Positions 2,280-64,000 of a stretch of 64,000 nucleotides of DNA are shown piece after piece. A program made the position numbers and the translations under genes. The notes below the pieces were generated by a model that was not told the origin of the DNA, ran no database searches, and worked only from the letters and a program-made list of their open reading frames with translations. Origin of the DNA: Caballeronia concitans (GTDB lineage: Bacteria > Pseudomonadota > Gammaproteobacteria > Burkholderiales > Burkholderiaceae); NCBI RefSeq assembly GCF_001544615.1, contig NZ_FCNV02000005.1, positions 225,803-289,802 of the forward strand, read 5' to 3'. Each line of letters starts with the position of its first letter. Position 1 is the stretch's first letter.

Positions 2280-2287
2280 GGGGTGGA

Positions 2288-2845: not shown

Positions 2846-2875
2846 TTTTGGCTTGTCCTTAGTGCGTCGTCTGAA

Positions 2876-3151: not shown

Positions 3152-3153
3152 GT

Positions 3154-3453: not shown

Positions 3454-3487
3454 TTAAACCTTGGTGGCTGTGACGAATGAATTCGCC

Positions 3488-3859: not shown

Positions 3860-3933
3860 ATTCACTCCTTGTGCTGACTTATGGATAGAAGCCGCCCGGG
3901 CGTCGGACCGGTGCGGCAAGTGAGAAGCCGAAG

Positions 3934-3962
3934 ATTATAGCTTTTTGTCTGCGCTCGTGCAA
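3934..3962 (-). promoter_or_regulatory. Promoter of the rpsF-priB-rpsR-rplI operon
   Basis: On the minus strand TTGCAC (3962-3957) and TATAAT (3939-3934) are separated by 17 bp, about 75 bp upstream of the rpsF start. This is a near-perfect sigma-70 promoter, as expected for a ribosomal protein operon. Confidence 0.85.
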
Positions 3963-3990
3963 ATTGAATTTCGAGCGCGTTTTCAAGCAG

Positions 3991-4953: not shown

Positions 4954-5122
4954 GTCCGTGTCTCCGTTGTAAGCCGCGCAGCATCTCAATTCGATACTTT
5001 TAGTTTGGGAAAAAGCGACTCGCGATGATCTTATCAAACCTTTTTCACGATCCTAAAGTGCAACGGAACCCTGCTTCGATGCAGACAGCATTCACGGATT
5101 GAGACACACGAAGGAGACATTC

Positions 5123-6898
<1,776 letters not shown>

Positions 6899-6936
6899 AC
6901 CACGCACTTCCACTGACCGACCATCAGGACCAACAC

Positions 6937-7737
6937 ATGCCGAAATTTGCCGCGAATCTGACGATGCTGTTCAACGAAGTCCCGTTCCTCGACCGCTTCG
7001 CCGCGGCCGCGAATGCGGGCTTCAAGGCGGTCGAGTTCCTGTTTCCCTACGCGTTCTCGATCGGCGACATCAAGACGCGCCTGAAGGACAACGATCTGCA
7101 AATCGTCCTGCATAACCTGCCCGCCGGGAACTGGGATGCGGGCGAGCGCGGCATCGCGTGCCTGCCCGATCGCGTCGCCGAGTTTCGTGAAGGCGTGGCC
7201 CGCGCGATCGAATACGCGAAGGCGCTGAACGTGCCGCAACTGAACTGCCTCGTCGGCATTCCGACGGCGGGCGTATCGGCGGATCAGGCGCGCGCGACGA
7301 TCATCGAGAACCTGCGCTTCGCCGCCGATGCGCTGAAGAAAGAAGGCATCAAGCTGCTCGTCGAGCCGTGCAACAGCTACGACATTCCGGGCTTCGCGCT
7401 GAACCGTTCGGGCGAAGGACTGGATGTCATTCGCGCGGTCGGATCGGACAATCTGTTCTTGCAGTACGACATCTATCACATGCAGCGAATGGAAGGCGAA
7501 CTCGCCGCGACCATCAAGAAGAACCTGCCGTCGATTGCGCATATTCAGCTTGCCGACAACCCCGGACGCAATGAGCCGGGCACGGGCGAAATCAACTACC
7601 CGTTCCTGTTCGAACTGCTCGATTCGATCGGCTATGAAGGATGGATCGGCTGCGAATACAAGCCGCTCAACGGCACCGAAGCGGGCCTCGGCTGGCTTCA
7701 GTCGATCGGCGGCGTCAAGCAACGCGCAACCGCCTAA
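6937..7737 (+). CDS. hyi: Hydroxypyruvate isomerase
   Basis: A 266-residue TIM-barrel protein of the xylose isomerase/AP-endonuclease-2 superfamily that interconverts hydroxypyruvate and tartronate semialdehyde. The opening MPKFAANLTMLFNEVPFLDR and the late metal/substrate-site segment GWIGCEYKPLNGTEAGLGWL are characteristic. It starts 38 bp after gcl and ends 27 bp before glxR, in one operon. The same fold is used by other sugar isomerases, but position between gcl and glxR fixes the role. Confidence 0.95.
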   Translation: MPKFAANLTMLFNEVPFLDRFAAAANAGFKAVEFLFPYAFSIGDIKTRLKDNDLQIVLHNLPAGNWDAGERGIACLPDRVAEFREGVARAIEYAKALNVPQLNCLVGIPTAGVSADQARATIIENLRFAADALKKEGIKLLVEPCNSYDIPGFALNRSGEGLDVIRAVGSDNLFLQYDIYHMQRMEGELAATIKKNLPSIAHIQLADNPGRNEPGTGEINYPFLFELLDSIGYEGWIGCEYKPLNGTEAGLGWLQSIGGVKQRATA

Positions 7738-7764
7738 ACCAGACACACAGGAGGAGCTAGAAGT

Positions 7765-8670
7765 ATGGCAACGATCGGTTTCATCGGACTCGGCATCATG
7801 GGCGCGCACATGGCGCGCAATCTCATCAAGGGCGGCCACTCGCTCGTCGTGAACGGCAAGTTTCCGGTACCCGACGACATCCGCGCGCAAACGAAGGTCG
7901 TCGCCGATTCGACGGCCGTTGCGCAAGCAAGCGAGATCATCATCACGATGGTGCCCGACACGCCGGATGTCGCGAACGTGCTGTTCGCCGATGACGGCGT
8001 CGCCAAAGGTCTGACGAGCGGCAAGCTCGTGATCGACATGAGCTCGATCAATCCGCTCGATACGCAGGAGTTCGCGAAGAAGATCAACGCGCTCGGCTGC
8101 GATTACCTCGACGCACCCGTGTCCGGCGGCGAAGTCGGCGCACGCGAAGCCACGCTGACGATCATGGTCGGCGGCCCGCAGAAGTCGTTCGACATCGCGA
8201 AGCCGCTCTTCGATTTGATGGGCAAGAACATCTCGCTCATCGGCGACAACGGCGCGGGTCAGACGACCAAGGTCGCCAATCAGATCATCGTTGCGCTGAA
8301 CATCGAAGCGGTCGCGGAAGCGCTGCTGTTCGCGTCGCGCTCGGGCGCCGATCCGGAACGCGTGCGCAAGGCGCTGATGGGCGGCTTCGCGGCATCGCGC
8401 ATTCTCGAACTGCACGGCGAGCGCATGACGAAGCGCACGTTCAATCCGGGCTTCAGGATCGAGCTGCATCAAAAGGATTTGAATCTCGCACTCGACGGCG
8501 CCCGCAAGATGGGCCTCGCCCTGCCCCACACGGCAAGCGCGCAGCAGTTGTTCAGCGTGTGCGCGGCGAACGGCGGCAAGGCGTGGGATCACTCGGCGCT
8601 CGTGCGCGCGCTCGAAATCATGTCGAACTTCCAGGTGGCGGAAGAGCCGCAGCAAGCCAAGGCTGCATGA
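7765..8670 (+). CDS. glxR: Tartronate semialdehyde reductase (2-hydroxy-3-oxopropionate reductase)
   Basis: A 301-residue beta-hydroxyacid dehydrogenase that reduces tartronate semialdehyde to D-glycerate with NAD(P)H. The N-terminal Rossmann motif GLGIMGAHMARNL is at about 9-20, the substrate-binding motif APVSGG at 117-122, and the catalytic lysine at about 169 in GAGQTTKVANQ. AGGAGG lies before the ATG. It is the third gene of gcl-hyi-glxR; the operon turns two glyoxylates into one glycerate that can enter glycolysis after phosphorylation. No glycerate kinase gene is present in the window. Confidence 0.96.
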   Translation: MATIGFIGLGIMGAHMARNLIKGGHSLVVNGKFPVPDDIRAQTKVVADSTAVAQASEIIITMVPDTPDVANVLFADDGVAKGLTSGKLVIDMSSINPLDTQEFAKKINALGCDYLDAPVSGGEVGAREATLTIMVGGPQKSFDIAKPLFDLMGKNISLIGDNGAGQTTKVANQIIVALNIEAVAEALLFASRSGADPERVRKALMGGFAASRILELHGERMTKRTFNPGFRIELHQKDLNLALDGARKMGLALPHTASAQQLFSVCAANGGKAWDHSALVRALEIMSNFQVAEEPQQAKAA

Positions 8671-8974
8671 GGCTTCGCACCTGAACCGTGGGGCGTCCCG
8701 CGTATGGGCACGCGGGACAAATGCCGCTCTGGGCTGAGGGCGGCAAGTGGGGTCCGAGAGCGGCATCCGGCGGCGCGCCGGGTAAGCCTTGGTCGGTCAG
8801 ACGGTTTGCCGTCGGGTGTCCGCGTCGGATTGCTGCGAGTGATGCTTCATCGATGCCGTGCGCGCCGCGCGGCACATTCCCTTGTCGAAACTCAGAACTA
8901 TCTGGTGGCGAGCGCGCCTAATGTGCCTAGACTCCGCAAGCGGCACCACCCTAGTTGATTCAAGGAGCTGAACA
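8671..8974. other. Intergenic region after glxR
   Basis: About 300 bp without a supported gene. It contains a perfect 9-bp inverted repeat (8695-8718, listed separately) and a weaker GC-rich hairpin just after it. The AAGGAG ribosome-binding site of the next gene is at its right end. Confidence 0.5.
8695..8718 (+). terminator. Hairpin after the gcl operon, possible terminator without T-run
   Basis: GTCCCGCGT (8695-8703) and ACGCGGGAC (8710-8718) form a perfect 9-bp stem with a 6-nt loop, 25 bp after the glxR stop. No uridine run follows, so it may be a 3'-stabilising or rho-assisted end rather than a full intrinsic terminator. Confidence 0.45.
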
Positions 8975-9469
8975 ATGGGAATCCTCAGTTTCATCAAGGA
9001 AGCAGGCGAAAAACTGTTCGGCGCAACCACGCCGTCCGCTCAGGCCGCGCCGGCGAGCGCGCCCGTCGATGTCGCCGCGCTCAATCAGAAAGCCGGCGAA
9101 GCCATCGCCACGTATATCCGCTCGCAAGGGCTCAATGCCGACAATCTCCAGGTCAAGTACGATGGCGCCTCGCATACCGTCACCGTGTCGGGGCAGGCGC
9201 CCGATCAGGCCACCAAGGAGAAGATCCTCGTCGCGGCGGGCAACGTGCAGCATGTCGATAAGGTCGACGATCAGTTGACCGTGCCCAATGCCGCGCCTGA
9301 ATCGCAGTATCACACGGTCGCGTCGGGCGACAATCTGTGGAAGATCGCGGAGAAGTACTACGGCAACGGCGCGAAGAACGAGCTGATTTTCGAAGCCAAC
9401 AAGCCGATGCTGAAGAGCCCGGACAAGATCTATCCGGGTCAGGTGCTGCGCATTCCGCCGGCAAACTGA
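8975..9469 (+). CDS. kbp: BON and LysM domain protein (potassium-binding Kbp/YgaU-like)
   Basis: A 164-residue protein with an N-terminal region starting MGILSFIKEAGEKLFG, a BON domain (about residues 30-100) and a C-terminal LysM domain (about 111-163, with YHTVASGDNLWKIAEKYYG and YPGQVLRIP). This order matches E. coli YgaU/Kbp, a small potassium-binding stress protein; LysM domains otherwise bind peptidoglycan. There is no clear signal peptide. It is monocistronic: AAGGAG precedes the start and a strong terminator follows. Confidence 0.88.
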   Translation: MGILSFIKEAGEKLFGATTPSAQAAPASAPVDVAALNQKAGEAIATYIRSQGLNADNLQVKYDGASHTVTVSGQAPDQATKEKILVAAGNVQHVDKVDDQLTVPNAAPESQYHTVASGDNLWKIAEKYYGNGAKNELIFEANKPMLKSPDKIYPGQVLRIPPAN

Positions 9470-9497
9470 TTGCTATTGCTCACGCCGCTTGTGGATG

Positions 9498-9529
9498 AAA
9501 AAAGCGCGAACTTCGGTTCGCGCTTTTTT
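9498..9529. terminator. Bidirectional terminator with cUUCGg tetraloop
   Basis: A 14-bp stem, AAAAAAGCGCGAAC with its exact complement, closed by a UUCG tetraloop on a C-G pair, with six T on either side. It lies between the kbp-like gene (+) and the asparaginase gene (-), which converge, and can serve both. Confidence 0.92.
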
Positions 9530-9562
9530 GTTTCTAGTGGGATGGCGTGCCGGGCGCTGCTC

Positions 9563-10564
9563 TCAGTACATATCGAACACCCGCTGCACGCCGCGCGCAT
9601 CATTCACGCCCGCCGCTAGCGCCAGCATCAGCAGCACGCGCGCCTTGTACGGATTCAGCGTGCCCGCGCTGACGCTGCCGAGTGCATCATCGGATGCGGC
9701 GCCGTTTCGCATCACATGGCCCGACCCCACGCGCGACGCACGCACCACCGCGACGCCCGCCTTCACCGCGTCGACGAGCGCTTGCGTGATGCTCGCGTGC
9801 ACCGAACCGTTGCCCGTTCCCGCCACCACGATGCCCTTCACGCCGGCTGCCACAAGCGCATCGACCGCCACGCGCGACGCGCCCGCGTAGCTCGCGACGA
9901 TCTCGACCATCGGCCATTCATCGACGATCGCGAACTCGCTTGCGAGCGTATGCGGCTTCGTGACCGCGCGCTGAAACTCCACGCGGCCGTCCTGCACGAA
10001 ACCGAGCGCGCCGGTTTCGGGCGAGCGGAACGCATCGACGGCGTAGGTGCTCGTCTTCGTCACATCGCGCGCGGTATGAATCTGATTGTTGAACGCGACG
10101 AGCACGCCCTGCCCCTTCGCACGCTCGCATGCCGCGACCGTGACTGCGTTGAGCAGATTGAGCGGTCCATCGGCGGAAAGCGCGCTCGATGGACGCATCG
10201 CGGCCGTCAGCACGACGGGCTTCGCGGTCTTCACCGTCAGATGCAACATGTACGCCGTTTCTTCGAGCGTATCCGTGCCATGTGTCACGACGATGCCGCT
10301 TATGTCGCCCTGCGCGGCGAGTTCGTCGATGCGCTTCGCGAGCGTCGTCCAGAGCGCGTGGCTCATGTCCTTGCTGTCGATGCTCGCGATCTGCTCCGCA
10401 TGAATGCGCGCGACGTTGCCGAGCGCAGGCACGGCGTCGAGCAGATCGTTCACGCCGACGACGCCCGCCTTGTAGCCCGCCGTCGATGCTGCATCGCCTG
10501 CGCGTCCGGCGATGGTGCCGCCCGTTGCGAGGACGGCGATGAGAGGTAGAGAGTCGGTTTTCAT
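9563..10564 (-). CDS. L-asparaginase
   Basis: A 333-residue enzyme that hydrolyses L-asparagine to aspartate and ammonia. Both catalytic signatures are intact: TGGTIAG at 14-20 with the first nucleophile threonine, and HGTDTLEE at 95-102 with the second threonine and aspartate. The conserved lysine region follows (TARDVTKTSTYAVDAF). No signal peptide is visible, so the enzyme is predicted to be cytoplasmic even though the motifs resemble type II enzymes. It stands alone between two other transcription units. Confidence 0.94.
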   Translation of the reverse strand: MKTDSLPLIAVLATGGTIAGRAGDAASTAGYKAGVVGVNDLLDAVPALGNVARIHAEQIASIDSKDMSHALWTTLAKRIDELAAQGDISGIVVTHGTDTLEETAYMLHLTVKTAKPVVLTAAMRPSSALSADGPLNLLNAVTVAACERAKGQGVLVAFNNQIHTARDVTKTSTYAVDAFRSPETGALGFVQDGRVEFQRAVTKPHTLASEFAIVDEWPMVEIVASYAGASRVAVDALVAAGVKGIVVAGTGNGSVHASITQALVDAVKAGVAVVRASRVGSGHVMRNGAASDDALGSVSAGTLNPYKARVLLMLALAAGVNDARGVQRVFDMY

Positions 10565-10593
10565 GCCGGCGATTGTAAATCAGCCGGCAGCGT

Positions 10594-11520
10594 TCACGCC
10601 GTCTCGCGCAGTTGCGCGGCGATCTGCGTTTCGTCGAGTTGCGGCGCGAACATTTCGATCAGACGGTACGCATACGCGCGCAAGAACGCGCCTCTGCGCA
10701 GGCCGACGCGCGTCGTGCTGGCTTCGAACAGATGCTGCGTATCGAGCGCGACGAGTTCGGTGTCGCGCTTCGCGTCATACGCCATCGCAGCGACGATGCC
10801 GATGCCCATGCCCAGTTCCACATACGTCTTGATGACGTCCGCGTCGATCGCGGTCAGCACGATATCGGGCATCGCGCCGGCGCTCGCGAACGCCTGGTCG
10901 ACGTGCGAACGGCCGGTGAAGTCATTGTCGTAAGTGACGATCGGATATTCCGCGATCTGCTCCAACGTGATGTTCTCGCGTCCGACGAGCGGATGATCCT
11001 TCGGCACGACCACCGTGTGATGCCACGAATAGCACGGAAACGTGACGATGTCCGGATAACGGTCGAGCGCTTCGGTGGATATGCCGATATCCGCTTCGCC
11101 GTTGATGATCATCTGCGCGATCTGCTGCGGGCTGCCCTGCCGAAGCGCAAGATGCACTTTCGGAAATACTTCGGTGAACTGACGGATCACTTTCGGCAGC
11201 GCATAGCGAGCCTGCGTATGCGTCGTCGCGACGACGAGGTGCCCGTTGTCCTGATCCGCGAACTGACGCGCCACGCGCCGCAGGTTCTCGGCATCGAGCA
11301 ACATGCGCTCGATCAGTTGATGCACCTGCTTGCCCGGCTCGGTCAGTCCCGTCAGACGCTTGCCGCGTCGAATGAAGATATCGACGCCGAGTTCGTCTTC
11401 GAGGTCCTTGATCTGTTTGGATACGCCGGATTGCGACGTATAGAGCACGTTGGCGACTTCCGTCAGATTCATGTTCTGACGCACCGCCTCGCGCACGAAG
11501 CGCAGTTGCTGGAAGTTCAT
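10594..11520 (-). CDS. cysB: CysB-type LysR regulator of sulfur assimilation
   Basis: A 308-residue LysR-type activator. The opening MNFQQLRFVREAVRQNMNLTEVA and the helix-turn-helix segment LYTSQSGVSKQIKDLEDELG are those of CysB/Cbl proteins, which sense O-acetylserine, sulfate or adenosine phosphosulfate and activate sulfate uptake. The substrate-binding domain runs from about 90 to 300 (TTHTQARYALP is the CysB-like ligand region). It lies 41 bp downstream of cysA, so it is probably the last gene of sbp-cysTWA-cysB. CysB and Cbl cannot be separated by eye. Confidence 0.92.
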   Translation of the reverse strand: MNFQQLRFVREAVRQNMNLTEVANVLYTSQSGVSKQIKDLEDELGVDIFIRRGKRLTGLTEPGKQVHQLIERMLLDAENLRRVARQFADQDNGHLVVATTHTQARYALPKVIRQFTEVFPKVHLALRQGSPQQIAQMIINGEADIGISTEALDRYPDIVTFPCYSWHHTVVVPKDHPLVGRENITLEQIAEYPIVTYDNDFTGRSHVDQAFASAGAMPDIVLTAIDADVIKTYVELGMGIGIVAAMAYDAKRDTELVALDTQHLFEASTTRVGLRRGAFLRAYAYRLIEMFAPQLDETQIAAQLRETA

Positions 11521-11561
11521 TTTCTGCCTCTCTTGTCTGCTGTCGTTTTTCTATGCCGGCG

Positions 11562-12632
11562 TCATTGCGCCGGAAACACACGCAGCGCGCGCGGCACGGC
11601 GCGCACGCCATCGCCGATATCGAGCTTCAGCGCGCGCCATGTTTCGCGGTCCAGTTCGGCTTCGAGCACGCCGCCCGCATCGCCTTCGAGCTCGACGCGC
11701 ACCGAGCCGCCCAGCGTCACCACGCGCCGCACGCCGACCACGATGCCATCGGGATGTGCGACGCCTTCCGCATCGTCGGCGCGATAGAGCGCGAGATCGT
11801 GCGGACGCACATAAGCGAGCGCGCGGCCGCTGAAATGCGCCTGCGCCGTGATGGCTTTCGCGGCGCCATCGGCGACGAAGCCGTTCGCATCGACGTTGCC
11901 TTGCAGACGGTTGGCCGCGCCGAGAAATTCATAGACGAACGATGTCTGCGGATGATCGTACACATCTTGCGGACTTCCCACCTGCTCCACGCGTCCATGA
12001 TTCATCACGACGATGCGGTCCGCCACTTCGAGCGCCTCTTCCTGATCGTGCGTGACGAAGAGCGTGGAGATATGCAGATCGTCGTGCAGACGGCGCAGCC
12101 AGCTACGCAGTTCCTTGCGCACCTTGGCATCGAGCGCGCCGAACGGTTCGTCGAGCAGCAGCACTTTCGGTTCGACGGCGAGCGCACGCGCGAGCGCGAT
12201 ACGCTGCCGCTGCCCGCCCGACAGCTCCGACGGAAAGCGCTGCGCGAGCCAGTCGAGCTGCACGAGCTTGAGCAGCTCATGCACCTTCTCGCGGATCGCC
12301 GCTTCGCTCGGACGCTCGCGGCGCGGCTTCACGCGCAGCCCGAACGCGACGTTCTCGAACACCGTCATGTGCCTGAAGAGTGCGTAATGCTGGAACACGA
12401 AGCCCACTTGCCGGTCGCGCGCGCCGACGTTCGCCACGTCCTCGCCATTCAACACGACCTGGCCTGCATCGGCATGTTCGAGGCCCGCGATCACGCGCAG
12501 GAGCGTGGTCTTGCCGCATCCCGACGGCCCGAGCAGCGCGACGAGTTCGCCTGCGGGAAAGTCGAGCGTGACGTTGTCGAGCGCGGTGAAATCGCCAAAG
12601 CGCTTCTGCAAATTGCGAACGATGATGCTCAT
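11562..12632 (-). CDS. cysA: Sulfate/thiosulfate ABC importer, ATP-binding protein
   Basis: The 356-residue ATPase of the sulfate importer. Walker A GPSGCGKT is at 35-42, the Q-loop near 81, signature LSGGQ at 137-141, Walker B LLLDEP at 158-163, and a C-terminal TOBE-like regulatory region follows from about 240. The frame is open far upstream, overlapping cysW, but the ATG at 12632 gives the conserved start [15 protein letters not shown]. It follows cysW by 20 bp. A typical importer consists of Sbp, CysT, CysW and two CysA, all encoded here. Confidence 0.96.
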
Positions 12633-48778: not shown

Positions 48779-49864
48779 TCACTTCGGCAGCGAGCCGTCC
48801 ACGCCTTCCACGTACCAGTTGATGCGCTGCAGTTCCGGATCCGTCAGCGTCTTGCCGGCCGGCACCTTTTCCGCGCCCGACTGATCCTTGATCGGACCCG
48901 TGAACACATCGCGCTTGCCGCTATGCAGTTCCTCGCGCTGGGCGGCGACGGCCTGCATCGCCTTCGCGGGAATCACGCCGCTGTTCAGGTCTTCCAGGTC
49001 CACCGCCTTCTGCGGAATGCCGAGCCACACCGGATCGTTCTTCCACTTGCCGTCCATGACCTTCTGGATCACGTCGTTGTAGTACACGCCCCAGTGCGCG
49101 ACGACCGAGCCCAGATGCGCGTTGGGACCGAACTTCTTCATGTTCGAATCCCAGCCGAACGCATAGACGTGCTTTTCGTTCGCGGTGTTGAGCGTCGCGT
49201 TCGAGTCGGTGTTCTGCAGCAGCACGTCCGCACCCTGCCCGATCAGCGTTTCAGCTGCCTGCTTTTCCTTGCCCGGATCGAACCAGCTGTTGATCCAGAT
49301 GACCTTCGTGTGGATCTTCGGATTCACCGAACGCGCGCCCAGCGTGTACGCGTTGATGTTGCGCACCACTTCCGGAATCGGCACCGACGCCACGAAGCCG
49401 AGCGTGTTCGTCTTCGTCACGTAGCCGGCGGCGACGCCCGCGAGATAGGCGCCCTGATACATGCGCACGTCGTACGTGCCGAAGTTCTTCGCTTTCTTGA
49501 AGCCCGTTGCCGACAGGAACACCGTGTCGGGGAAGTCCTTCGCGACCTTCAGCGCGAAGTCCTGATAGCCGAAGCTCGTCGCGAAGATGATCATGTTGCC
49601 CTTGTTCGCGAGATCGCGGAACACGCGTTCCGAGTCCGCGGATTCCGGCACGTTCTCCACGCGCGTGATCTTGATCTTGCTGCCGTACTTCGCTTCGGCT
49701 TCCTTCGATCCGGCGTCGTGCGCGAAAGTCCAGCCCGCATCGCCCGGATTGCCGAGATAAACGAACGCGACGCCCGGCGCGTCCGCGGCTTGAACGCTTG
49801 CGGCGGCGAGCGTCGCCGACAGTGCGACCGTGGCCGCGATCGCCTTCAGCCCTGCTTTATTCAT
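48779..49864 (-). CDS. BMP-family nucleoside/purine ABC binding protein
   Basis: A 361-residue periplasmic binding protein of the BMP (PnrA/Med) family, which captures nucleosides or nucleobases for import. The signal peptide ends near VQA (residue 26). Family segments include GVAFVYLGNPGDAGWTFAHD, RVFRDLANKGNMIIFATSFGY and YQGAYLAGVAAGYVTKTN; the aromatic/acidic pocket residues VYAFGWDSNMKKFGP follow. Its cognate ATPase and permeases are encoded upstream (53689-50068), separated by a 203-bp gap with a 28-bp palindrome. Context suggests purine or ureide substrates. Confidence 0.92.
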   Translation of the reverse strand: MNKAGLKAIAATVALSATLAAASVQAADAPGVAFVYLGNPGDAGWTFAHDAGSKEAEAKYGSKIKITRVENVPESADSERVFRDLANKGNMIIFATSFGYQDFALKVAKDFPDTVFLSATGFKKAKNFGTYDVRMYQGAYLAGVAAGYVTKTNTLGFVASVPIPEVVRNINAYTLGARSVNPKIHTKVIWINSWFDPGKEKQAAETLIGQGADVLLQNTDSNATLNTANEKHVYAFGWDSNMKKFGPNAHLGSVVAHWGVYYNDVIQKVMDGKWKNDPVWLGIPQKAVDLEDLNSGVIPAKAMQAVAAQREELHSGKRDVFTGPIKDQSGAEKVPAGKTLTDPELQRINWYVEGVDGSLPK

Positions 49865-50021
49865 TGCGTGATTCTCCTTTTGGATGTTGTATGCAAAACG
49901 GAAAGCGGTTCGCCTGAAGTTTCATCGGCCAAAAAAGCCGGCGTAACCCGGGCGCGCGCGGTGCGGCAAGACAGCAACAGACGCGTCGTTGATCGTATCG
50001 CGCGGCATTTTGAATGCGGCA

Positions 50022-50049
50022 CTTTGCATGCAACGCGTTGCATGCAAAG
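50022..50049. repeat. 28-bp perfect palindrome between permease and BMP genes
   Basis: The 14-bp arm CTTTGCATGCAACG (50022-50035) is followed at once by its exact reverse complement (50036-50049). It lies 18 bp downstream of the permease stop. A second, imperfect hairpin (50002-50020, GCGGCATT/AATGCGGC with one mismatch) follows it in the direction of transcription. Confidence 0.95.
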
Positions 50050-50067
50050 AACCAGGACCCGCGTGCA

Positions 50068-50997
50068 TCAGCTCGCGGCGAAAAACGGCTTGCCGAGCGA
50101 CGCCGGCGCGTTCAGCTTGATCGTGTTCGGATTGCGCGAGATCAGCACCAGCACGACGATGGTCGCGAGATACGGCAGCATCGCGAGAAACTGCGTCGGC
50201 ACCGGCACGCCGATGGCCTGCGCGTAGAACTGCAGCGCCATCACCGCGCCGAAGAGCAGCGCGCCGATCAGGAGCCGGCCCGGACGCCAAGTCGCGAACA
50301 CGACGAGCGCAAGCGCGATCCACCCGCGCCCCGAGGTCAGCTGTTCCTGCCACACGTGCAGATAGACGATCGAGTAGTAGCCGCCCGCGATGCCCGCCAT
50401 CGCGCCGCCGAAGAGCGTCGCACCGTAGCGCACGCCGACCACCGGAAAGCCGACCGAATGCGCGACCGCCGGCGATTCGCCGACCGAGCGCAGCACGAGC
50501 CCGGCGCGCGTCTTGTACAGGAACCAGCCGATCAGCGCGAACATCGCGAATGCGAGATAGCCTAACAGCGTCAACGAGAAGATCGCCGGGCCGAGCACCG
50601 GAATGCTGGAAAGACCGGGAATCGGCATCACGTCGATGCTCGCGCGCACCGCCGCCGACGTGTACGGCTTGCCGACATATGCCGAAAAGCCGATGCCGAA
50701 GATCGTGAGCGAGAGGCCCGTCGCGACCTGATTCGCAAGCATCGTGATGGTGAGAAAGCCGAAGAGCAGCGCCATCGCGAGTCCGGCGAACACCGACGCG
50801 ACGATGCCGAGCCACGGGCTGCCGGTGATCGCGGTGACCGCGTAACCGGTGACCGCGCCCATCAGCATCATGCCTTCGACGCCGAGATTGAGCACGCCCG
50901 ACTTTTCGGCGACGAGTTCGCCCGCGCCCGCGAACATCAGCGGAATGGCCGCGACGACCGCGCTCGATGCGAGATTGCTGGCTTGATTGATGTCCAT
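50068..50997 (-). CDS. Nucleoside/purine ABC importer permease 2
   Basis: A 309-residue permease of the BPD_transp_2 (branched-chain/ribose) class with about 8-10 membrane helices. The N-terminal segments SAVVAAIPLMFAGAGELVAEKSGVLNLGVEGMM and VAGLSLTIFGIGFSAYVG are those of the second BMP-transporter permease. It starts 11 bp after permease 1. The C-terminus ends at IKLNAPASLGKPFFAAS. Confidence 0.93.
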   Translation of the reverse strand: MDINQASNLASSAVVAAIPLMFAGAGELVAEKSGVLNLGVEGMMLMGAVTGYAVTAITGSPWLGIVASVFAGLAMALLFGFLTITMLANQVATGLSLTIFGIGFSAYVGKPYTSAAVRASIDVMPIPGLSSIPVLGPAIFSLTLLGYLAFAMFALIGWFLYKTRAGLVLRSVGESPAVAHSVGFPVVGVRYGATLFGGAMAGIAGGYYSIVYLHVWQEQLTSGRGWIALALVVFATWRPGRLLIGALLFGAVMALQFYAQAIGVPVPTQFLAMLPYLATIVVLVLISRNPNTIKLNAPASLGKPFFAAS

Positions 50998-51008
50998 CTG
51001 TGTCTCTC

Positions 51009-52115
51009 TTAAGCGGCGTGATGCGCCGGCGTGCGACGCCTGATGCGGTAATTGACGAAAAGATCGCAGCCGAGCAGACAGAACAGCAGCAAACCCTGAA
51101 ACACGCCCGCGAGCGCCTGAGGCAATTGCAGCGACGTTTGCACCGCTTCGCCGCCGAGATACAGGAGCGCCATCAAGAGACTCGCGAGCACGATGCCGAC
51201 CGGATGCAGCCGCCCGACGAACACGACGATGATCGCCGTGAAGCCGTAGCCCGGCGACCAGCTCGCCTGAAGCTGTCCGATGGGACCGGCCACTTCGCCC
51301 ATGCCGGCAAGCCCCGCGAGACCGCCCGAAAGGAGCAGCGACGTCCAGATCGTTTTTTTGTCGGAGAAGCCCGCGTAGCGCGCGGCCAGCGGCGCCAGCC
51401 CGCCGACGTTCATCCGGAAGCCCGCGAAACTCTTGCGCATGAAAAGCCACACGAGCGGCACCGCGATCGCCGTCAGAAACACCGACGCGTTGATGCGCGT
51501 GCCCTTGAGCCAAGTCCAGTGCCAGTCGCCGTAGAGACGCGGGAACAGCGCATCGTCGACGAACATCGCGGAAATCGGGAAGTTCATGCCCTCCGGATCG
51601 CGCCACGGGCCGCTCACCAGATAGATGAGCAACTGCGTCGCGACGTAGGTGAGCATGAGGCTCGTGAGAATCTCGTTCGTGTTGAAGCGGCTCTTGAGCA
51701 GCGCGGGGATCGCGGCCCACGCCATGCCGCCCGCGACGCCGCCCGCCATCATCAGCGGCAGCGTCCACCAGCCGGAGGCGTCGCCCGCATGAATGGCGAT
51801 GCCGCCCGCGACGATGCCGCCGAGCAACATCTGCCCTTCCGCGCCGATGTTCCACACGTTCGCGCGATAGCCGACCGCGAGCCCGAGCCCGATGAGGCAC
51901 AGCGGCGAGGCTTTCAGCACCAGTTCCGACCAGCCGTTGATATTCGAGAGCGGCTCGATGAAGAACGCGTGCATCGCGCGCAGCGGGTCCTGGCCGACAA
52001 TGCTGAAAATCAGGAAGCCGATCACGAGCGTCGCGACAGCGGCGACGACCGGCACGGCGAGCTGCATGACGCGCGACGGCGTCGGGCGCGCTTCGAGTCG
52101 ATAGGGAAAGATCAT
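51009..52115 (-). CDS. Nucleoside/purine ABC importer permease 1
   Basis: A 368-residue permease partner, BPD_transp_2 class, with about 10 membrane helices. Characteristic segments: LRAMHAFFIEPLSNINGWSELVLKASPLCLIGLG and NVWNIGAEGQMLLGG, then NEILTSLMLTYVA. The start at 52115 overlaps the ATPase stop by ATGA, so translation is coupled. Confidence 0.93.
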   Translation of the reverse strand: MIFPYRLEARPTPSRVMQLAVPVVAAVATLVIGFLIFSIVGQDPLRAMHAFFIEPLSNINGWSELVLKASPLCLIGLGLAVGYRANVWNIGAEGQMLLGGIVAGGIAIHAGDASGWWTLPLMMAGGVAGGMAWAAIPALLKSRFNTNEILTSLMLTYVATQLLIYLVSGPWRDPEGMNFPISAMFVDDALFPRLYGDWHWTWLKGTRINASVFLTAIAVPLVWLFMRKSFAGFRMNVGGLAPLAARYAGFSDKKTIWTSLLLSGGLAGLAGMGEVAGPIGQLQASWSPGYGFTAIIVVFVGRLHPVGIVLASLLMALLYLGGEAVQTSLQLPQALAGVFQGLLLFCLLGCDLFVNYRIRRRTPAHHAA

Positions 52116-53689
52116 GCTTTGTGGCTCAAGGAGTCGAGTTCGGCGGCGGACGTGCGTTTGCCGTCGAAGAGGCCCGCCATGAAGAGGCCGATTTCCTCGG
52201 CGTTGGTCTCGCCCGTCGCGCGCACCGGCGAGAGCTTGCCTCGCGCGAGCACGGCGAGGCGGTCGCAGATGTCGAAGAGTTCTTCCAGTTCCTCGGAAAT
52301 CACAAGAATGGCGACGCCGCGCGCCGCGAGATCGAGCAGTTGCTGGCGGATGAAACCCGCCGCGCCGACATCGACGCCCCAGGTCGGCTGCGCGACCACG
52401 AGCACCTTCGGCGCCTGCAATATCTCGCGTCCGACGATGAACTTCTGCAGGTTGCCGCCCGAGAGACTTTGCGCGAGCGCGCCGCTGCCGCCGCAACGCA
52501 CGTCGAAGGCTTCGATGCAGCGGTCGGCGAACGCTTTCATCGCGCCGGACCGGATCCAGCCGCCCTGCACCAGCTTCTGCCGATGCGCGGTGAGCAAACC
52601 GTTGTCGGCAAGCGACATCGCCGGGACCGCGCCGCGTCCGAGCCGCTCTTCGGGCACGAATGCGAAGCCGAGGCGCCGCCGTGCGCCTGCCGTTAGACGC
52701 GCGGCGGGCGTGCCGCAGATGGAGACGGCATCGGGCGCGGCCTGACGATCGCGGATTTCGCCGGACAGCGCCGCGAGCAGTTCCGCCTGGCCGTTGCCCG
52801 ACACGCCCGCGATGCCGAAGATTTCGCCCGCGCGCACGCCGAATGACACGTTTTCCAGCGACGTGCCGAACGGATCGGGACTCGCCACGGAAAGATCCTT
52901 CACCGCGAGCAGCACGTCGCCGGGCGTATGCGCGCGCCGCGTGTAGTCCGGCAGGCTGTGGCCGACCATCAGCTGCGCGAGCGACGCGTGCGTTTCCTTG
53001 CGCGGATCGACGTTGCCGGTCACGCGGCCACCCCGCATCACGGTGGCGTTCTCGCAAAGCGACTGGATTTCGTCGAGCTTGTGGCTGATATAGAGAATGC
53101 TGCAGCCTTCCGCCGCGAGCCGGCGCAAGACCTTGAAGAGCTTCTGAACCGCTTGCGGCGTCAGCACCGAAGTCGGTTCGTCCATGATGAGCAGACGCGG
53201 ATTCTGCAGCAGGCATCGCACGATCTCGACGCGCTGCCGCTCGCCCACCGTCAGGCTGTGAACGTGCCGCTGCGGATCGACATCGAGGCCATAGTCCGCC
53301 GATACCTCGCGAATGCGCTTGGACAGCGCCTTCATGTCGAATTTATCGTCGAGCGCGAGTGCGATGTTTTCAGCGACCGTCAGCGTCTCGAACAGCGAGA
53401 AATGCTGAAACACCATGCCGATGCCGAGCTTGCGGGCCGCCGCCGGACTGCCGATCTCGACGGCCTCGCCCTGCCAGCGGATCTCGCCTTCATCCGGCCG
53501 CACGGCGCCGTAGATGATCTTCATCAGCGTGGATTTGCCCGCGCCGTTTTCGCCGAGCACGGCGTGAATCTCGCCCGGCATCACGACGAGGTTCACTCCG
53601 TCGTTGGCCTTGACGGACGGATACTGCTTGCTGATGCCGGACAACGCCAGGCGCGGTGGCGTTGTCGAGTTCGAAATGGCGTCGCTCAT
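52112..53689 (-). CDS. Nucleoside/purine ABC importer ATPase (two nucleotide-binding domains)
   Basis: A 525-residue ATPase with two fused ABC domains, as in ribose and BMP-type importers. The first domain has Walker A GENGAGKS at 46-53 and Walker B LLIMDEPTSVL; its signature is degenerate (LTVGERQRVEI). The second domain carries LSGGNLQKFIVGREI and a degenerate Walker B (VLVVAQPTWGVD). This asymmetry is normal for the class. It is first of the ATPase-permease-permease genes and has a hairpin just upstream of its start. No Shine-Dalgarno is visible. Confidence 0.94.
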   Translation of the reverse strand: MSDAISNSTTPPRLALSGISKQYPSVKANDGVNLVVMPGEIHAVLGENGAGKSTLMKIIYGAVRPDEGEIRWQGEAVEIGSPAAARKLGIGMVFQHFSLFETLTVAENIALALDDKFDMKALSKRIREVSADYGLDVDPQRHVHSLTVGERQRVEIVRCLLQNPRLLIMDEPTSVLTPQAVQKLFKVLRRLAAEGCSILYISHKLDEIQSLCENATVMRGGRVTGNVDPRKETHASLAQLMVGHSLPDYTRRAHTPGDVLLAVKDLSVASPDPFGTSLENVSFGVRAGEIFGIAGVSGNGQAELLAALSGEIRDRQAAPDAVSICGTPAARLTAGARRRLGFAFVPEERLGRGAVPAMSLADNGLLTAHRQKLVQGGWIRSGAMKAFADRCIEAFDVRCGGSGALAQSLSGGNLQKFIVGREILQAPKVLVVAQPTWGVDVGAAGFIRQQLLDLAARGVAILVISEELEELFDICDRLAVLARGKLSPVRATGETNAEEIGLFMAGLFDGKRTSAAELDSLSHKA

Positions 53690-58373: not shown

Positions 58374-59393
58374 TTAGTGGGCCGCGAAGTACGCCTTCAC
58401 GGCATCGATGACGGTATCGATATCCTCGGGCAACACATCGCGATGCGTGACGAATCGCGATGCATACAGCATCTGCGTAAGGATGCCGCGCTCTTTCAGC
58501 CACGCTTCGAGCCGCTCGCAGTGCGCCTGCGGAATCTGCGCGAAGACCATGTTGGTCGCCTGCGATTGGATCGAGATGCCGTCGATCCGCGCGAGCCCCG
58601 CGGCGAGACGCGCGGCGTTGTCGTGATCCTGCGCGAGTCCATCGACATGATGATCCAGCGCATACAGACACGCCGCCGCGAGCAGGCCGGCTTGCCGCAT
58701 GCCGCCGCCGAGCACCTTGCGCCAGCGCGCCGCGACGTCGATGAGCGCGCGGCTCCCGACCAGCACCGATCCCACCGGCGCGCCCAGTCCCTTCGAGAAG
58801 CAGATGGACACCGTATCGAACGGCGCGCACAGCTCGCTCACCGGACGGTCCGACGCGACGGCCGCATTGAACACGCGCGCGCCGTCGAGATGCGTCGAGA
58901 GTCCGAGATCGCGCGCGAGCTTCGTCGCTTCCGTCACGTACGAAGCCGGCAGCACCTTCCCGCCGATGGTGTTCTCCAGCGCGAGCAGCTTCGAGCGCGC
59001 GAAGTGATTGTCGATCGGCTTGATGGCCGCCGCGATCTTCTCGAGCGGCAGCGAGCCGTCGGGCGCGTTTTCGATCGGCTGCGGCTGGATGCTGCCGAGC
59101 ACGGCCGCGCCGCCGCCCTCGTATTTGTACGTGTGCGCCGCCTGCCCGACGATGTATTCGTCGCCGCGCGCACAGTGCGCCATCAGCGCGGCGAGATTGC
59201 TTTGCGTGCCGCTCGGGAAGAACAGGCCCGCTTCCTTGCCGGTGCGTTCGGCAAGCGTGGACTGAAGCCGGATGACGGTCGGATCGTCGCCCCAGACGTC
59301 GTCGCCGACTTCGGCTGCGGACATGGCCGCGAGCATGGCCTGGCTCGGGCGGGTGACGGTATCGCTGCGTAGATCGATCATGCGTGCGGGCAT
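58374..59393 (-). CDS. ltaE: Low-specificity L-threonine aldolase
   Basis: A 339-residue PLP enzyme that cleaves L-threonine or L-allo-threonine to glycine and acetaldehyde. The start gives MIDLRSDTVTRPSQAM; the cofactor lysine is K201 in SICFSKGLGAPVGS; the conserved SGTQSNLAAL and HLDGARVFNAAV segments are intact. It sits between the two halves of the purine region and is oriented with the ureide operon, but a strong terminator separates it. Glycine production may be linked to purine turnover only indirectly. Confidence 0.95.
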   Translation of the reverse strand: MPARMIDLRSDTVTRPSQAMLAAMSAAEVGDDVWGDDPTVIRLQSTLAERTGKEAGLFFPSGTQSNLAALMAHCARGDEYIVGQAAHTYKYEGGGAAVLGSIQPQPIENAPDGSLPLEKIAAAIKPIDNHFARSKLLALENTIGGKVLPASYVTEATKLARDLGLSTHLDGARVFNAAVASDRPVSELCAPFDTVSICFSKGLGAPVGSVLVGSRALIDVAARWRKVLGGGMRQAGLLAAACLYALDHHVDGLAQDHDNAARLAAGLARIDGISIQSQATNMVFAQIPQAHCERLEAWLKERGILTQMLYASRFVTHRDVLPEDIDTVIDAVKAYFAAH

Positions 59394-59453
59394 CGTGGAA
59401 TCGCTCGTCGGAAAGGAACCGTCTATGGTAGCCGTTTCGCGCGCCGCAAAGAA

Positions 59454-59482
59454 AAAGACCGGCGCTATTCGCGCCGGTCTTT
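59454..59482 (-). terminator. Terminator after allA
   Basis: AAAGACCGGCGC (59454-59465), loop TATTC, GCGCCGGTCTTT (59471-59482). On the minus strand the stem is followed by TTTTTCTTT, so it ends the puuE-uraD-alc-allA transcript. Confidence 0.92.
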
Positions 59483-59506
59483 CGGGTCAGCCTTGAGGAA
59501 GAGCCG

Positions 59507-60010
59507 CTATCGCAACGCGTCTTCCGTGAGCCATACCGATTCTCTCAGGTCCTGCTCGTTGAGGTTGTGCCCCTCTCCTCCGCGATCGACGACGATGAAA
59601 TCGCTCACCTTGCCGAGCGCGAGCAACGGATGATGCCAGACGCCCTTCGCATAATTGACGCCTTGCCAGCCGCGCGTGACGAACGCGCGGATCTTCGATT
59701 CGTCGAGATCGCCCGCCGGCGCGACCACGACGAGATACGGCCGGTCATCGAGCGGCACGAACGCCTGGCTGCCGAGCGGATGCCGCTCCATCATCTTGCA
59801 TTCGAACGGCAGCGTGCGCGGCTGCCCGCGAAACAGATTGACGATCGCGCGGCCGCCTTCGTCGGTCACGTCCACGTTGCAGAGATCGTGGAAGCGGATC
59901 GTCGTGCCGAGATTGATCGGAATCTGCTTCGCGCCTTCCAGTTCGATCACGTCGCCGAAAGGCTCGAACGCAGCGCGCGTCAGCGGTTCGATGGCCAGCT
60001 TCTTCATCAT
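59507..60010 (-). CDS. allA: Ureidoglycolate lyase
   Basis: A 167-residue cupin-like enzyme that splits ureidoglycolate into glyoxylate and urea. Family segments are visible: [16 protein letters not shown], then [27 protein letters not shown] with the metal-site residues, and [13 protein letters not shown]. The ATG at 60010 overlaps the alc stop by ATGA, so both are translated together. It is the last step before glyoxylate enters gcl-hyi-glxR. Confidence 0.95.
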
Positions 60011-61017
60011 GCGAGCGTTCCGAAAAGACGCAGGCGCGACACGCCGCCGTCCGGGTAAATATTGAAGCGCACGTGCGTCACCGGCCCGAGCGCCGCCAGT
60101 TCCGATTCGAAGAAATGCTGCTTGTCCATCTGCAGCTTCTGCTCGCCGAGCAGCACCGGCCAGAACATGGCCTGCGTGACGAGCGAGCTGTCCGTGCCGC
60201 CCGTGACATACGCGGCCTGCAGCGAGCAGCGGTCGGGGAAATTGCCCTTGAAGTGCGCGGTATCCACTTCGACCTTCTTGATGATGCCCGGCTGCGCCAG
60301 CGCGACGATACACCAGTCGTTGCCCGGTTCGCGGCGACGGCGCGTTTCCCAGCCATCGCCCATGTTGACGCCGCGGCCCGGCATCAGAAGCGTCGAGGCG
60401 AGCCCGAAGTGCTGGTTGTTCGTGCCGACCATGTACGCGCCGTTTTCCATCGCGCCGAGATCGACGAGCTGGTTACGGTCCGCGTTGCGCCAGTCGAGCT
60501 GCGGCTGGCCGTACACACGCAGACGCGCGATGCCGCCGTCCGGATAGATGTTCACGCGCAGGTGCGTGAACGGCTGTTCCGCGCTGACATCGAGATAGTG
60601 GTGGCTATTGCCCTGCAGCGTCATCGACGGCACGATTTCGGTCCATTGCGTGGACTGGTTCGGCGAGCCATCGGCGACATGCGCGCCTTCGATCGACGCC
60701 GCCGGCGGGAAATTGCCCGTGAAGTGGCTCGTGTCGAGATCGATGCCCTTGATCACGCCCGGCCGCGCCAGCTTGACGACGCACCAGTCGTAGCCCGTCG
60801 TGCGCTTGCGGCGCGTTTCCCAGCCGTCCATCCACTTGCCGTGATCGTCGAATTTGCCGGGGATGAACACGGCCGGCTCGGGGTTCAGCATGCGTTCCTT
60901 CGGCGCGAAGAAATCGTCGCTCGCCTCGAGCGCCTGCGCGCCGAGACGCGGGTCCGCGAGATTCACATAACGGCGCGTGAAGTCGGGCGCGTTGGGATCG
61001 AGTGTCGGAATTGCCAT
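60007..61017 (-). CDS. alc: Allantoicase
   Basis: A 336-residue enzyme that hydrolyses allantoate to ureidoglycolate and urea. Two internally repeated jelly-roll halves are evident: [42 protein letters not shown] in the first and [42 protein letters not shown] in the second, each followed by RVNIYPDGG or RFNIYPDGG. The start gives [22 protein letters not shown]. It is preceded by uraD with a 31-bp gap. Confidence 0.96.
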
Positions 61018-61048
61018 TGTCTTCGTCCTTGTTAAACGGGTGAAAGGA

Positions 61049-61570
61049 TCATGCCGCGATGAGGTCGTCCAACCTGAAGCGGGCGATCCGGTAAATCTGA
61101 TCGAGGCTCGTGCGAAGCTCTTCGGCGCGGTCGTGATTCACGCGCTTTTCGAAGTTCGCGATGATGCCGTGACGGTCATAGCCGCGCACGGCGAGAATGA
61201 ACGGAAAGCCGAATTTCTCGCGATACCGCGCGTTCAGCGATTGCAGCTTGTCGAACTCTTCCTGCGTGCAGAGGTCGAGGCCGGCGCCGCTCTGCTCGCG
61301 CGTCGATTCGGCCGTCAGTTCGCCGCGCACCGCCGCCTTGCCCGCGAGTTCCGGGTGCGCGTTGATGAGCGCGAGCTGCTTTTCGTCGCCGGCTGTTTCG
61401 ACCGCTTTCGACATCGCCGCATGCAGCGCGTCGATGCTCGCGAACGGGCGCTGCTTCGCCGCGATTTCCGCGACCCACGGCGAGTGTTCGAAGATGCCCG
61501 CGAGCACGGTCACGAAGGCATCGGCGGGCATGGCGTTGAGTTGATCGAGTGTGGTTTGCATCGCTTTCAT
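61049..61570 (-). CDS. uraD: OHCU decarboxylase (2-oxo-4-hydroxy-4-carboxy-5-ureidoimidazoline)
   Basis: A 173-residue helical enzyme that decarboxylates OHCU to (S)-allantoin, the third step after urate oxidation. The catalytic His is at 72 in [11 protein letters not shown], and the substrate segments [15 protein letters not shown] and later [18 protein letters not shown]-type residues are present. Its start overlaps the puuE stop by ATGA. It lies between puuE and alc. Confidence 0.95.
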
Positions 61571-62538
61571 GCCGCCGTCCCGTTGTTGGTTTCGCGCTTG
61601 GTTTCACTCTTCGTCTGATACGGATGATGCTCGCGCCAGTGCCGCGCGATATCCACGCGCCGCGTCACCCAGACGCGATCATGCTTCTCGATGTGATCGA
61701 GGAACCTCTGCAGTCCGCGGAAGCGCCCCGGACGCCCGAGCAGCCGGCAATGCATGCCGATGGAAAGCATCTTCGGCGCTTCGTCGCCTTCTTCGTAGAG
61801 CACGTCGAAGGCATCGCGCAGATAAGTGAAGAAGTGATCGCCCGTGTTGAAGCCCTGCGGCGTGGCGAAGCGCATGTCGTTGGTATCGAGCGTGTACGGC
61901 ACGATCAGTTGCGGCGTGGTCTTGCCGCCCGTCACTTCGACGTCCATCCAGAACGGGAGGTCGTCGCCGTAATAATCGGAGTCGTAGAGAAAGCCGCCGT
62001 ATTCCGCCACCAGCCGATGCGTGTTCGGGCTGTCGCGCCCGGTGTACCAGCCGAGCGGCCGCACACCGGTGACGCGCTCGATGGCTTCCATGCCGAGCCG
62101 CATGTGCTCCGCTTCGCGCTCGGGCGACATGTCCTGATAGTGAATCCACCGATAGCCGTGGCACGCAATCTCGTGCCCCAGTTCGACGAACGCCTTCGAG
62201 AGTTCCGGATGCCGTTCCATCGCCATGCCGACGCCGAACACCGTGAGCGGCAAGCCGCGCTTCTCGAACTCGCGCAGGATGCGCCACACGCCCGCGCGCG
62301 ATCCGTATTCGTAGATCGATTCCATGCTCATGTGACGCGACGGATACGCCGCCGCGCCGACGATCTCGGACAGAAACTGCTCGGAGCCGGGATCGCCGTG
62401 CAGCACGCAGTTTTCGCCGCCTTCTTCGTAATTGAGCACGAATTGCACGGCGACGCGCGCGCGTCCCGGCCAGTTCGCCTGCACGGGGTGGCGGCCGTAG
62501 CCGATCAGGTCGCGCGGATAGTTCGGATCGAAAGACAT
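61567..62538 (-). CDS. puuE: Allantoinase PuuE (polysaccharide deacetylase-type)
   Basis: A 323-residue allantoinase of the NodB/polysaccharide-deacetylase fold, unrelated to AllB-type allantoinase; it opens allantoin to allantoate. The opening DPNYPRDLIGYGRHPVQANWPG, the motif VQFVLNYEEGGENCVLHGD and ELGHEIACHGYRWIHYQ are typical. The start at 62538 follows GGAT-like sequence; the longer frame is shadow of the racemase gene. First of puuE-uraD-alc-allA. Confidence 0.95.
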   Translation of the reverse strand: MSFDPNYPRDLIGYGRHPVQANWPGRARVAVQFVLNYEEGGENCVLHGDPGSEQFLSEIVGAAAYPSRHMSMESIYEYGSRAGVWRILREFEKRGLPLTVFGVGMAMERHPELSKAFVELGHEIACHGYRWIHYQDMSPEREAEHMRLGMEAIERVTGVRPLGWYTGRDSPNTHRLVAEYGGFLYDSDYYGDDLPFWMDVEVTGGKTTPQLIVPYTLDTNDMRFATPQGFNTGDHFFTYLRDAFDVLYEEGDEAPKMLSIGMHCRLLGRPGRFRGLQRFLDHIEKHDRVWVTRRVDIARHWREHHPYQTKSETKRETNNGTAA

Positions 62539-62636
62539 GGCTGGGTCAGGAGCTGGGCGTTGAAGATCGGATTGTCGACGATTCAGTGTAGCGAAAACGC
62601 TTCGGCGCGCCCATACAGCGGCGCAGATATCCGCGA

Positions 62637-63371
62637 TCAGCGCGGGCTGAAATCGACGAGCACGCCGTCGTAGCGTTTGGCGAGCGGCCGCGCGAAATCG
62701 CCCCGTTTCGCCGTGTGCAGCTTCAGCGCGACGAGCGCCTCCGCCCACTTGACCGCCGCCGTCACGCCTTCGACGACCGGCGCGCCGATCGCGTCCTCCA
62801 CTTCGCGGCAGAACTCCGCCATGCCCGCGCAGCCGAGCACGATGGCGTCCGATCCGTCTTCGTCGAGCGCGCGCCGGCACTCGTCGATGATCGTTTCCCG
62901 CGCCGCCGATCCCGGTTCGTCGAGTTCGAGCACGGCGACATCCGTCGCACGCACGTTCTTGCAGAAGCGCGACATGCCGTAGCGCTCCGCGAGATGCCAC
63001 GCCATGCCGCACGTGCGCTCGAGCGTCGTCACGACGGAAAAGCCCGGCGCGATGACGCTCGCCGCATGCATCGCCGCTTCCGCGATGCCGATCACCGGGC
63101 CGCGCGCCAGTTCGCGGGCTGCGTACAGCGCGGGATCGCCGAAGCACGCGATCACGTAGGCATCGACGCCCTGCCGCTCGCCCGCTTCCACCTCGGCGAG
63201 CAGACCGAGCGACGCGAGCGCTTCGTCGTAATAGCCTTCGATGGACGGCGGACCCATCGGCGGGCTGACCGCGATGATCTCGGTGCCCGGCGCGGCGACG
63301 TCGCGGGCGCAGCGAGCCATCGAATCGGTCATGCGCTGCGTCGTGTTCGGATTGATGAGTTTGATGCGCAT
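62637..63371 (-). CDS. Allantoin/hydantoin racemase (Asp/Glu racemase family)
   Basis: A 244-residue racemase with two catalytic cysteines, C76 in YVIACFGDPALY and C181 in IVLGCAGMAEF. The opening MRIKLINPNTTQRMTDSM is that of HpxA-like allantoin racemases and hydantoin racemases. Beside puuE, uraD and an NCS1 permease, allantoin is the likely substrate. The start at 63371 follows AAAGGAG. It ends 98 bp before puuE. Confidence 0.88.
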   Translation of the reverse strand: MRIKLINPNTTQRMTDSMARCARDVAAPGTEIIAVSPPMGPPSIEGYYDEALASLGLLAEVEAGERQGVDAYVIACFGDPALYAARELARGPVIGIAEAAMHAASVIAPGFSVVTTLERTCGMAWHLAERYGMSRFCKNVRATDVAVLELDEPGSAARETIIDECRRALDEDGSDAIVLGCAGMAEFCREVEDAIGAPVVEGVTAAVKWAEALVALKLHTAKRGDFARPLAKRYDGVLVDFSPR

Positions 63372-63463
63372 TGCTGTCTCCTTTCTTCCTGCCATCCGCC
63401 GCGGCGCTTCGTCGAGCGTCCTGTCGGCGGTTCTGTGTATCGTCTCTCAGGTTCTCTTCGCGC

Positions 63464-63922
63464 TCAGACGGCGCGCTTGCGGTCCGCCAGCATCCAGTAG
63501 AACAACGCGCCCAGTCCCGCGCCGATGAACCACGAGAAGTTCGCGGAGGCTTCGAGCGACGGCAGCATCACGCAGAGAATCGCGATCACGGCGGCGGGCA
63601 GGAGCGCCATCACCGCACGACGATTCACGCCCTTCGTGTACCAATACTTGCCAGTTTCCGACGTGGTGTAGAGATCGTCCACCGCGAGCGTGCCGCGCTT
63701 GACCAGATAGAAGTCAATGATCAGGACACCATACAATGGTCCGATGAAGCTGCCGAGAATATCGAGCGTGTAGTGAATCACGGCCGGGTTGTTGAACAGG
63801 TTCCACGGCGTGATGAAAATCGATGCGGTCGCGGCCAGCATGCCGCCCATGCGCCAGCTGATGAGACGCGGCGCGACGTTCGAGAAGTCGAAAGCCGGCG
63901 ACACGAAGTTGGCCACGATATT
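63464..63922 (-). pseudogene. NCS1-family allantoin/hydantoin/purine permease, 3' fragment interrupted by an IS
   Basis: The C-terminal 150 or so residues of an NCS1 (nucleobase-cation-symport-1) permease, normally about 490 residues. They open NIVANFVSPAFDFSNVAPR, a core conserved segment, and continue through the last membrane helices to ADRKRAV. Directly upstream the frame changes at about 63,923 to sequence unlike NCS1 (LNPP and earlier residues), where an IS30-like end begins. The permease is therefore probably split and inactive unless an internal start rescues it. It belongs with the ureide gene cluster. Confidence 0.8.
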
Positions 63923-63923
63923 G

Positions 63924-64000
63924 GGCGGATTCAAACGGTCGTCGCAACACTGGATTGTTGAACAGATTTCAGGTACTCGTCTAGGGCTTCCGCAGGTGTC
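63924..64000 (-). mobile_element. IS30-like insertion sequence, right end
   Basis: Bases 63924-63949 match, at 19 of 26 positions by my recollection, the terminal inverted repeat of E. coli IS30, including the blocks GATTCAA, GGTC and CGCAACA. Inward of it lies the transposase C-terminus. The rest of the element is beyond the window. Confidence 0.72.
63931..64000 (-). CDS. IS30-family transposase, C-terminal end (partial)
   Basis: The last 22 codons read T-P-A-E-A-L-D-E-Y-L-K-S-V-Q-Q-S-S-V-A-T-T-V, ending at TGA 63933-63931 inside the inverted repeat. The TPAEAL motif is typical of the IS30 DDE transposase C-terminus. The frame differs from the permease frame and is the only one open to the window edge with a plausible coding composition. 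The N-terminus and catalytic residues lie outside. Confidence 0.68.
   Translation of the reverse strand, partial: TPAEALDEYLKSVQQSSVATTV

Follow-up and report, generated by a model that had tools for sequence, protein, structure and literature searches.

IS30-family elements generate target duplications of 2-3 bp on insertion. Transposition by way of circles is attributed to the family in the part of the source drawn on here (PMC3299598). For the NCS1 permease Mhp1, the section of the work used here describes a hydrogen bond between Asn318 and the ligand, and a significant loss of uptake when this residue is exchanged for Ala (PMC4195764). For PLUTO, a homologue from plants, the section of the study cited here reports weak or no effect of changes at Asn 426 and 430 (PMC3951388), and on the basis of that section we equated these residues with the Mhp1 Asn pair by their spacing. 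Our literature search found no work treating Mhp1 Asn318 together with Asn314 and none linking an NCS1 permease, allantoin and hydantoin with Burkholderia.

The DNA analyzed here, a stretch of 64,000 nucleotides from Caballeronia concitans (the window), corresponds to C26:225803-289802. Contig C26 is 289,802 bp long and the last base of the window is therefore the last base of the contig, in a draft assembly of 6.17 Mb in 47 contigs. At this end of the window, a simple insertion of an IS30-family element has almost certainly split the NCS1 permease gene that heads a Caballeronia ureide run, with duplication of CAA. The following features make up the junction:

63464..63923, minus strand: C-terminal part of the NCS1 permease, about 150 codons plus stop (PF02133 positions 299-440, E 5.8e-28)
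63921..63923, minus strand: target-site duplication CAA (second copy at L028 9921-9923, contig C11)
63924..64000, minus strand: right end of the IS30-type element, 77 bp, where the contig stops (94.8% identity over 77/77 bp to the Lep1P3 element end)
63924..63950, no strand assigned: 27-bp terminal inverted repeat (a single base differs from the left end on C11)
63931..63999, minus strand: last 22 codons plus stop of the IS30-type transposase (TPAEALDEYLKSVQQSSVATTV; matches related element ends)

ORF reading and Pfam trace the permease frame leftward to the stop at 63464, with a family match up to 63923, and the encoded part shares 94% identity with residues 349-498 of the 500-amino acid permease that is intact in genome G012. 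The 23 in-frame residues above 63923 (DTCGSPRR...) gave no alignment with the G012 permease, and the frame is open there. Both the reach of the frame to 63464 and its loss of family likeness upstream of 63,923, as given in the original prediction, are thus confirmed by Pfam and by this alignment. The terminal repeat GGCGGATTCAAACGGTCGTCGCAACAC begins at 63924, directly adjoining that position, and after the IS the window side reads CAATATCGTGG. In a frame other than that of the permease, positions 63999-63931 encode TPAEALDEYLKSVQQSSVATTV followed by a stop, the element end of Caballeronia sp. Lep1P3 encoding TPAEALDEYLESVQQSSVATTG followed by a stop; the transposase C-terminus had been predicted in just such a different frame.

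The other half of the gene is located at the end of contig C11, which carries permease codons 1-350, then ...GGCATCAA and then the opposite IS end for 77 bp. This N-terminal half is 96% identical to the G012 permease and covers PF02133 positions 5-298. The family model is consequently covered in two abutting parts, 5-298 (179.2 bits) and 299-440 (98.3 bits), against a cut-off of 23.5, which places the permease in the family. The original prediction had proposed looking beyond the junction for an N-terminal permease half, a second inverted repeat and a target duplication. All three are present: the halves are complementary (Pfam 298/299), the repeat at the C11 end differs by one mismatch with 26 of 27 bases common to the two IS ends, and the same 3 bp, CAA, stand on both sides. 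Together, the two halves, the two IS ends and the CAA duplication support the predicted splitting of the permease by an IS30-like element. A full-length relative used as query returned five matches in the assembly, namely the two halves and three paralogues, and no intact copy of this permease.

Comparison with the best 80 named relatives, out of 435, reveals the empty site. In 79 of the 80, the two flanks, taken at 300 bp each and compared by BLAST, share an overlap of precisely 3 bp, L070 giving no end-to-end alignment; CAA was hence duplicated and the site otherwise shows neither gain nor loss. The proposed check against related strains gave a permease that is uninterrupted, defined as a single stop-free match from residue <=45 to >=485, in 77 of the 80. 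The exceptions are L053, which ends at a contig edge, and two orthologues that look broken: that of L070 (Candidatus Burkholderia humilis), matched in four pieces, and that of L087 (Candidatus Paraburkholderia calva), matched in two pieces and containing a stop. We take both of these organisms to be leaf-nodule symbionts. Within the same best 80, the closest named relatives of the permease part belong to C. grimmiae R27 and Caballeronia sp. GAFFF1 (94% identity each). In each of five relatives for which 12 kb were compared, a single contig carries the C11 and C26 sides next to each other; in C. grimmiae R27 the matches run over 1-6002 and, in two pieces, 6000-12453.

A chimera or misassembly, in which IS sequence has been falsely joined to an intact permease, would suit a window that ends at a contig end in a 47-contig draft where the IS body was not found. 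Two contigs that bear complementary parts of the permease, opposite ends of the IS and an identical 3-bp duplication, with no intact copy found in the assembly, speak against it and leave it extremely improbable. A contig-end artefact was considered as well and is ruled out by both junctions, the complementary halves and the 3-bp duplication. The CAA on both sides and the joint flanks in five relatives over 12 kb also bear on recombination between IS copies, which would have left the halves at different copies and no longer neighbors. The genome contains three further ends of the element, on C9, C3 and C18, which make such homologous recombination possible, but given these two observations we consider it very unlikely. 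A later inversion or exchange between IS copies is possible.

The manner in which the contig ends points to a repeat. A pattern of the terminal repeat with <=2 mismatches hit 7 sites in 6.17 Mb and the reversed control hit 0. Five contigs (C26, C11, C18, C9 and C3) end 72 or 77 bp inside the element, which identifies the contig end as one of the kind caused by repeats, and the break at the end of C26 presumably results from the assembler halting at a multi-copy repeat. Stops at 72 and 77 bp would fit short-read assembly with words of 77 bases; a word of that length leaves unexplained that C26 runs five bases beyond C9 and C3. Searching the assembly for the IS body by DNA, using the C20 copy as query, gave 7 matches, of which one was a 28-bp end-like match on C8 and the others were ends or C20 itself. 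By protein, a Pandoraea transposase query gave 5 matches, corresponding to C20 (89%) and to pieces on C8 and C10 (40-54%). Because the body was not found in the assembly, we infer one simple copy joining C26 and C11 from the duplication and the frame. An element carried by only part of the population, or serving as a reversible switch of uptake, would be in keeping with a consensus assembly that displays a single allele and with the circles described for the IS30 family in the part of the source cited above (PMC3299598). The assembly yielded no contig with the empty site, and this alternative appears highly improbable compared with a simple, fixed insertion.

The simple insertion involves an element of a wider group. 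The closest complete relative found is 1453 bp long, resides on plasmid p2 of Caballeronia sp. Lep1P3 and has ends of the same type. This copy is itself probably inactive because its transposase frame contains a stop at codon 139, while the L130 and L133 copies possess a single open frame of 470 and 472 codons, respectively. A relative in Pandoraea oxalativorans encodes a 449-amino acid transposase scoring 244.1 bits against NF033563 (transpos_IS30, cut-off 80). The 22 transposase codons in the window have counterparts at the ends of both the Lep1P3 and the Pandoraea element; it is the Pandoraea transposase that passes the family profile. The 27-bp terminal inverted repeats with one mismatch are of the IS30/IS1655 type, bearing out the likeness to an IS30 inverted repeat noted in the original prediction, and the short target duplication, here CAA, is as in IS30. 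Seven copies have both end regions (this site, L046/L129, L130, L131, L132, L133 and L048). The repeat pattern did not locate the left end of L131; a 3-bp direct repeat flanks all six copies readable at both ends (CAA, CTG, GTG, TTG, CAA and CTA). With the Lep1P3 element as query, 31 of 58 genomes yielded a match at E <=0.001, a count that includes short end matches and other IS30 elements, with <=6 candidates per genome scored. Among the matches listed, at least five genomes (G062, G010, G059, G073 and G045) span 1448-1453 of the 1453 bp.

Other sites of the element were also observed. A 300-bp IS3-type transposase stretch, 100% identical on C18, C9 and C3, is adjoined by the element at one same base, through the left end on C18 (L029 9924) and the right end on C9 (L030 9929) and C3 (L031 5710), so that the element occurs in opposite orientations at one target, TATTG. 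TATTG/CAATA is found next to the element end at the permease (L028 9923), at the IS3-type site and at L132, L133 and L143, and is absent at others such as L129, L130 and L048; its recurrence suggests a target preference of the element group. A truncated copy with the same flank (GGTCGCAA) is present on C20 (L032 6291-7000) and on plasmid p2 of Caballeronia sp. Sq4a (NZ_CP084254.1, L047 3002-3711; source Anasa tristis), with 99.6% identity over 711 bp. C20 may be plasmid-derived, wholly or partly, because it has the truncated copy and flank in common with the Sq4a plasmid.

Neither part of the permease contains a stop or frameshift. We compared both parts with 20 relatives, L053 having been dropped from the 21 nearest loci for a gene cut by the contig end. 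Over the last 300 codons of the N-terminal part, the median dN/dS against these relatives is 0.050 (relatives' medians 0.034-0.070). Over the first 147 codons of the C-terminal part it is 0.156 (relatives 0.084-0.168), above 18 of the 20 relatives yet in their range. Of the 388 columns in which all 20 relatives agree, the sequence here departs in one; leave-one-out values for the relatives are 0-4 (N-terminal part) and 0-2 (C-terminal part). Over 77 bp the left IS end on C11 is identical to that of C18, as is, over 72 bp, the right end in the window to those of C9 and C3. Intact frames, dN/dS values within the relatives' spread and IS ends identical between copies support a recent, though undated, insertion, in line with the recent-looking event and otherwise undecayed remnant of the original prediction.

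Ordinary transposition would have carried the element into the permease gene, with 3 bp (CAA) duplicated on insertion and the cut falling in an asparagine codon. This codon aligns with Asn314 of Mhp1, counted on the Mhp1 chain, four residues ahead of Asn318, a region that we take to be helix TM8. The alignment of the intact relative with the hydantoin permease Mhp1 (2JLN/4D1A) has an E value of 1.6e-24 over residues 36-464 of the relative, with the N..AN motif aligned. Since the Asn changes in PLUTO have weak or no effect in the section of that study cited above, what counts would be the loss of everything downstream and not the residue hit. When the N-terminal frame is read into the C20 IS copy as a stand-in, a stop follows after 27 residues, and after 12 when it is read into the Lep1P3 copy. 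As the N-terminal part ends at codon 350, without the Asn318 equivalent and all beyond, we infer from the sequence that the split permease is non-functional and gives no working product.

The intact relative matches the allantoin permease model NF008476 over nearly its whole length at 275.1 bits, below the cut-off of 620, and scores 244.8 bits against the allantoin permease equivalog NF047713 (cut-off 800). An NCS1 paralogue of 492 amino acids (49% identity), encoded near 77 kb of C26 next to the gene for a LysR-type regulator, is also below the allantoin-permease cut-offs. Against the NCS1 subfamily TIGR00800, with a cut-off of 353.1 bits, the intact relative reaches 280.2 and the paralogue 311.5. 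Because both proteins lie below all these cut-offs, no substrate is named for the split permease. Of the proposed loss of allantoin or purine uptake, the split permease stands, while allantoin or purine as its substrate is not supported by these scores. The proposed back-up is an importer inside the window:

48779..53689, minus strand: BMP/PnrA-type ABC importer (Bmp PF02608 at 48779-49864; BPD_transp_2 in ORF 50068-51900; two ABC_tran in 52112-53689)

ORF 49922-50815 had no Pfam match at 1e-6, so that Pfam recognises one permease of this importer, besides its binding protein and ATPase. The importer, suggested as back-up at 48.8-53.7 kb, may take over uptake, but it need not be the one to do so since the genome also holds NCS1 paralogues. 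Two of these, on C12, are more distant (30 and 31% identity), and the 49% identical paralogue is a possible alternative back-up. Transport, if any, is predicted to pass to the NCS1 paralogue or to the BMP importer.

The permease is the first gene of a same-strand run for ureide (allantoin) breakdown, which continues in the window as follows:

62637..63371, minus strand: Asp/Glu/hydantoin racemase family gene, adjacent to the permease on its downstream side (PF01177, E 1.2e-57 for ORF 62637-63395)
61567..62538, minus strand: allantoinase PuuE (TIGR03212, 531.4 bits, cut-off 424.6, in ORF 61567-63147; start read from sequence)
61049..61570, minus strand: OHCU decarboxylase, UraD (PF09349, E 1.4e-54)
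60007..61017, minus strand: allantoicase (PF03561, E 1.5e-103)

A urate oxidase gene lies near this cluster. On C11, a gene 316 bp upstream of the permease on the same strand has matches, below cut-offs, to GntR-type regulators. For a promoter between the permease and racemase genes, a consensus scan of 59300-64000 yielded 0 promoter-like sites against 0.8 expected; of its 6 terminator-like sites, against 3.4 expected, none is on the minus strand above 60932. The direction of the transposase is that of the ureide genes behind the insertion, which are predicted either to be expressed less through polarity or to be transcribed from the co-directional IS. Since the IS lies inside the first gene of the run and is co-directional with the genes behind it, the insertion could uncouple the racemase, allantoinase, UraD and allantoicase genes from the promoter ahead of the permease, giving IS-driven or constitutive expression with uptake shifted to the paralogous permease; we regard this reading as rather unlikely.

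The event is a routine IS insertion and a clear but ordinary gene inactivation. With the cluster-borne NCS1 permease split in the assembly, it would be a mistake to annotate a functional permease on the basis of one contig or the other. The locus also represents a natural knock-out for testing which transporter serves the Caballeronia ureide pathway.

Among known systems, Mhp1 belongs to the same NCS1 family; the gene here is interrupted, and no substrate is assigned to its product. The element encoding WP_084010166.1 on pPO70-2 of Pandoraea oxalativorans (L048) has a left repeat equal to the C11 end and a right repeat one base off the C11 end, and its transposase shares 89% identity over residues 1-204 with the truncated C20 copy, although it occupies another site in another host. 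For ISLxc3, an IS30-family element of Leifsonia xyli, the part of the source used here gives a length of 1511 bp, compared with 1453 bp for the Lep1P3 element, and NTG duplications at two copies, compared with CTG, GTG and TTG/CAA in the element group described here (PMC2516522). The CTA of the Pandoraea copy falls outside this NTG/CAN pattern, and the element at the permease takes part in the comparison through its ends. As given in the same part of that source, the 3' repeat of ISLxc3, GGCGGATTCTAGTGGTCGTTGCAACA, is close to the repeat found here (PMC2516522).
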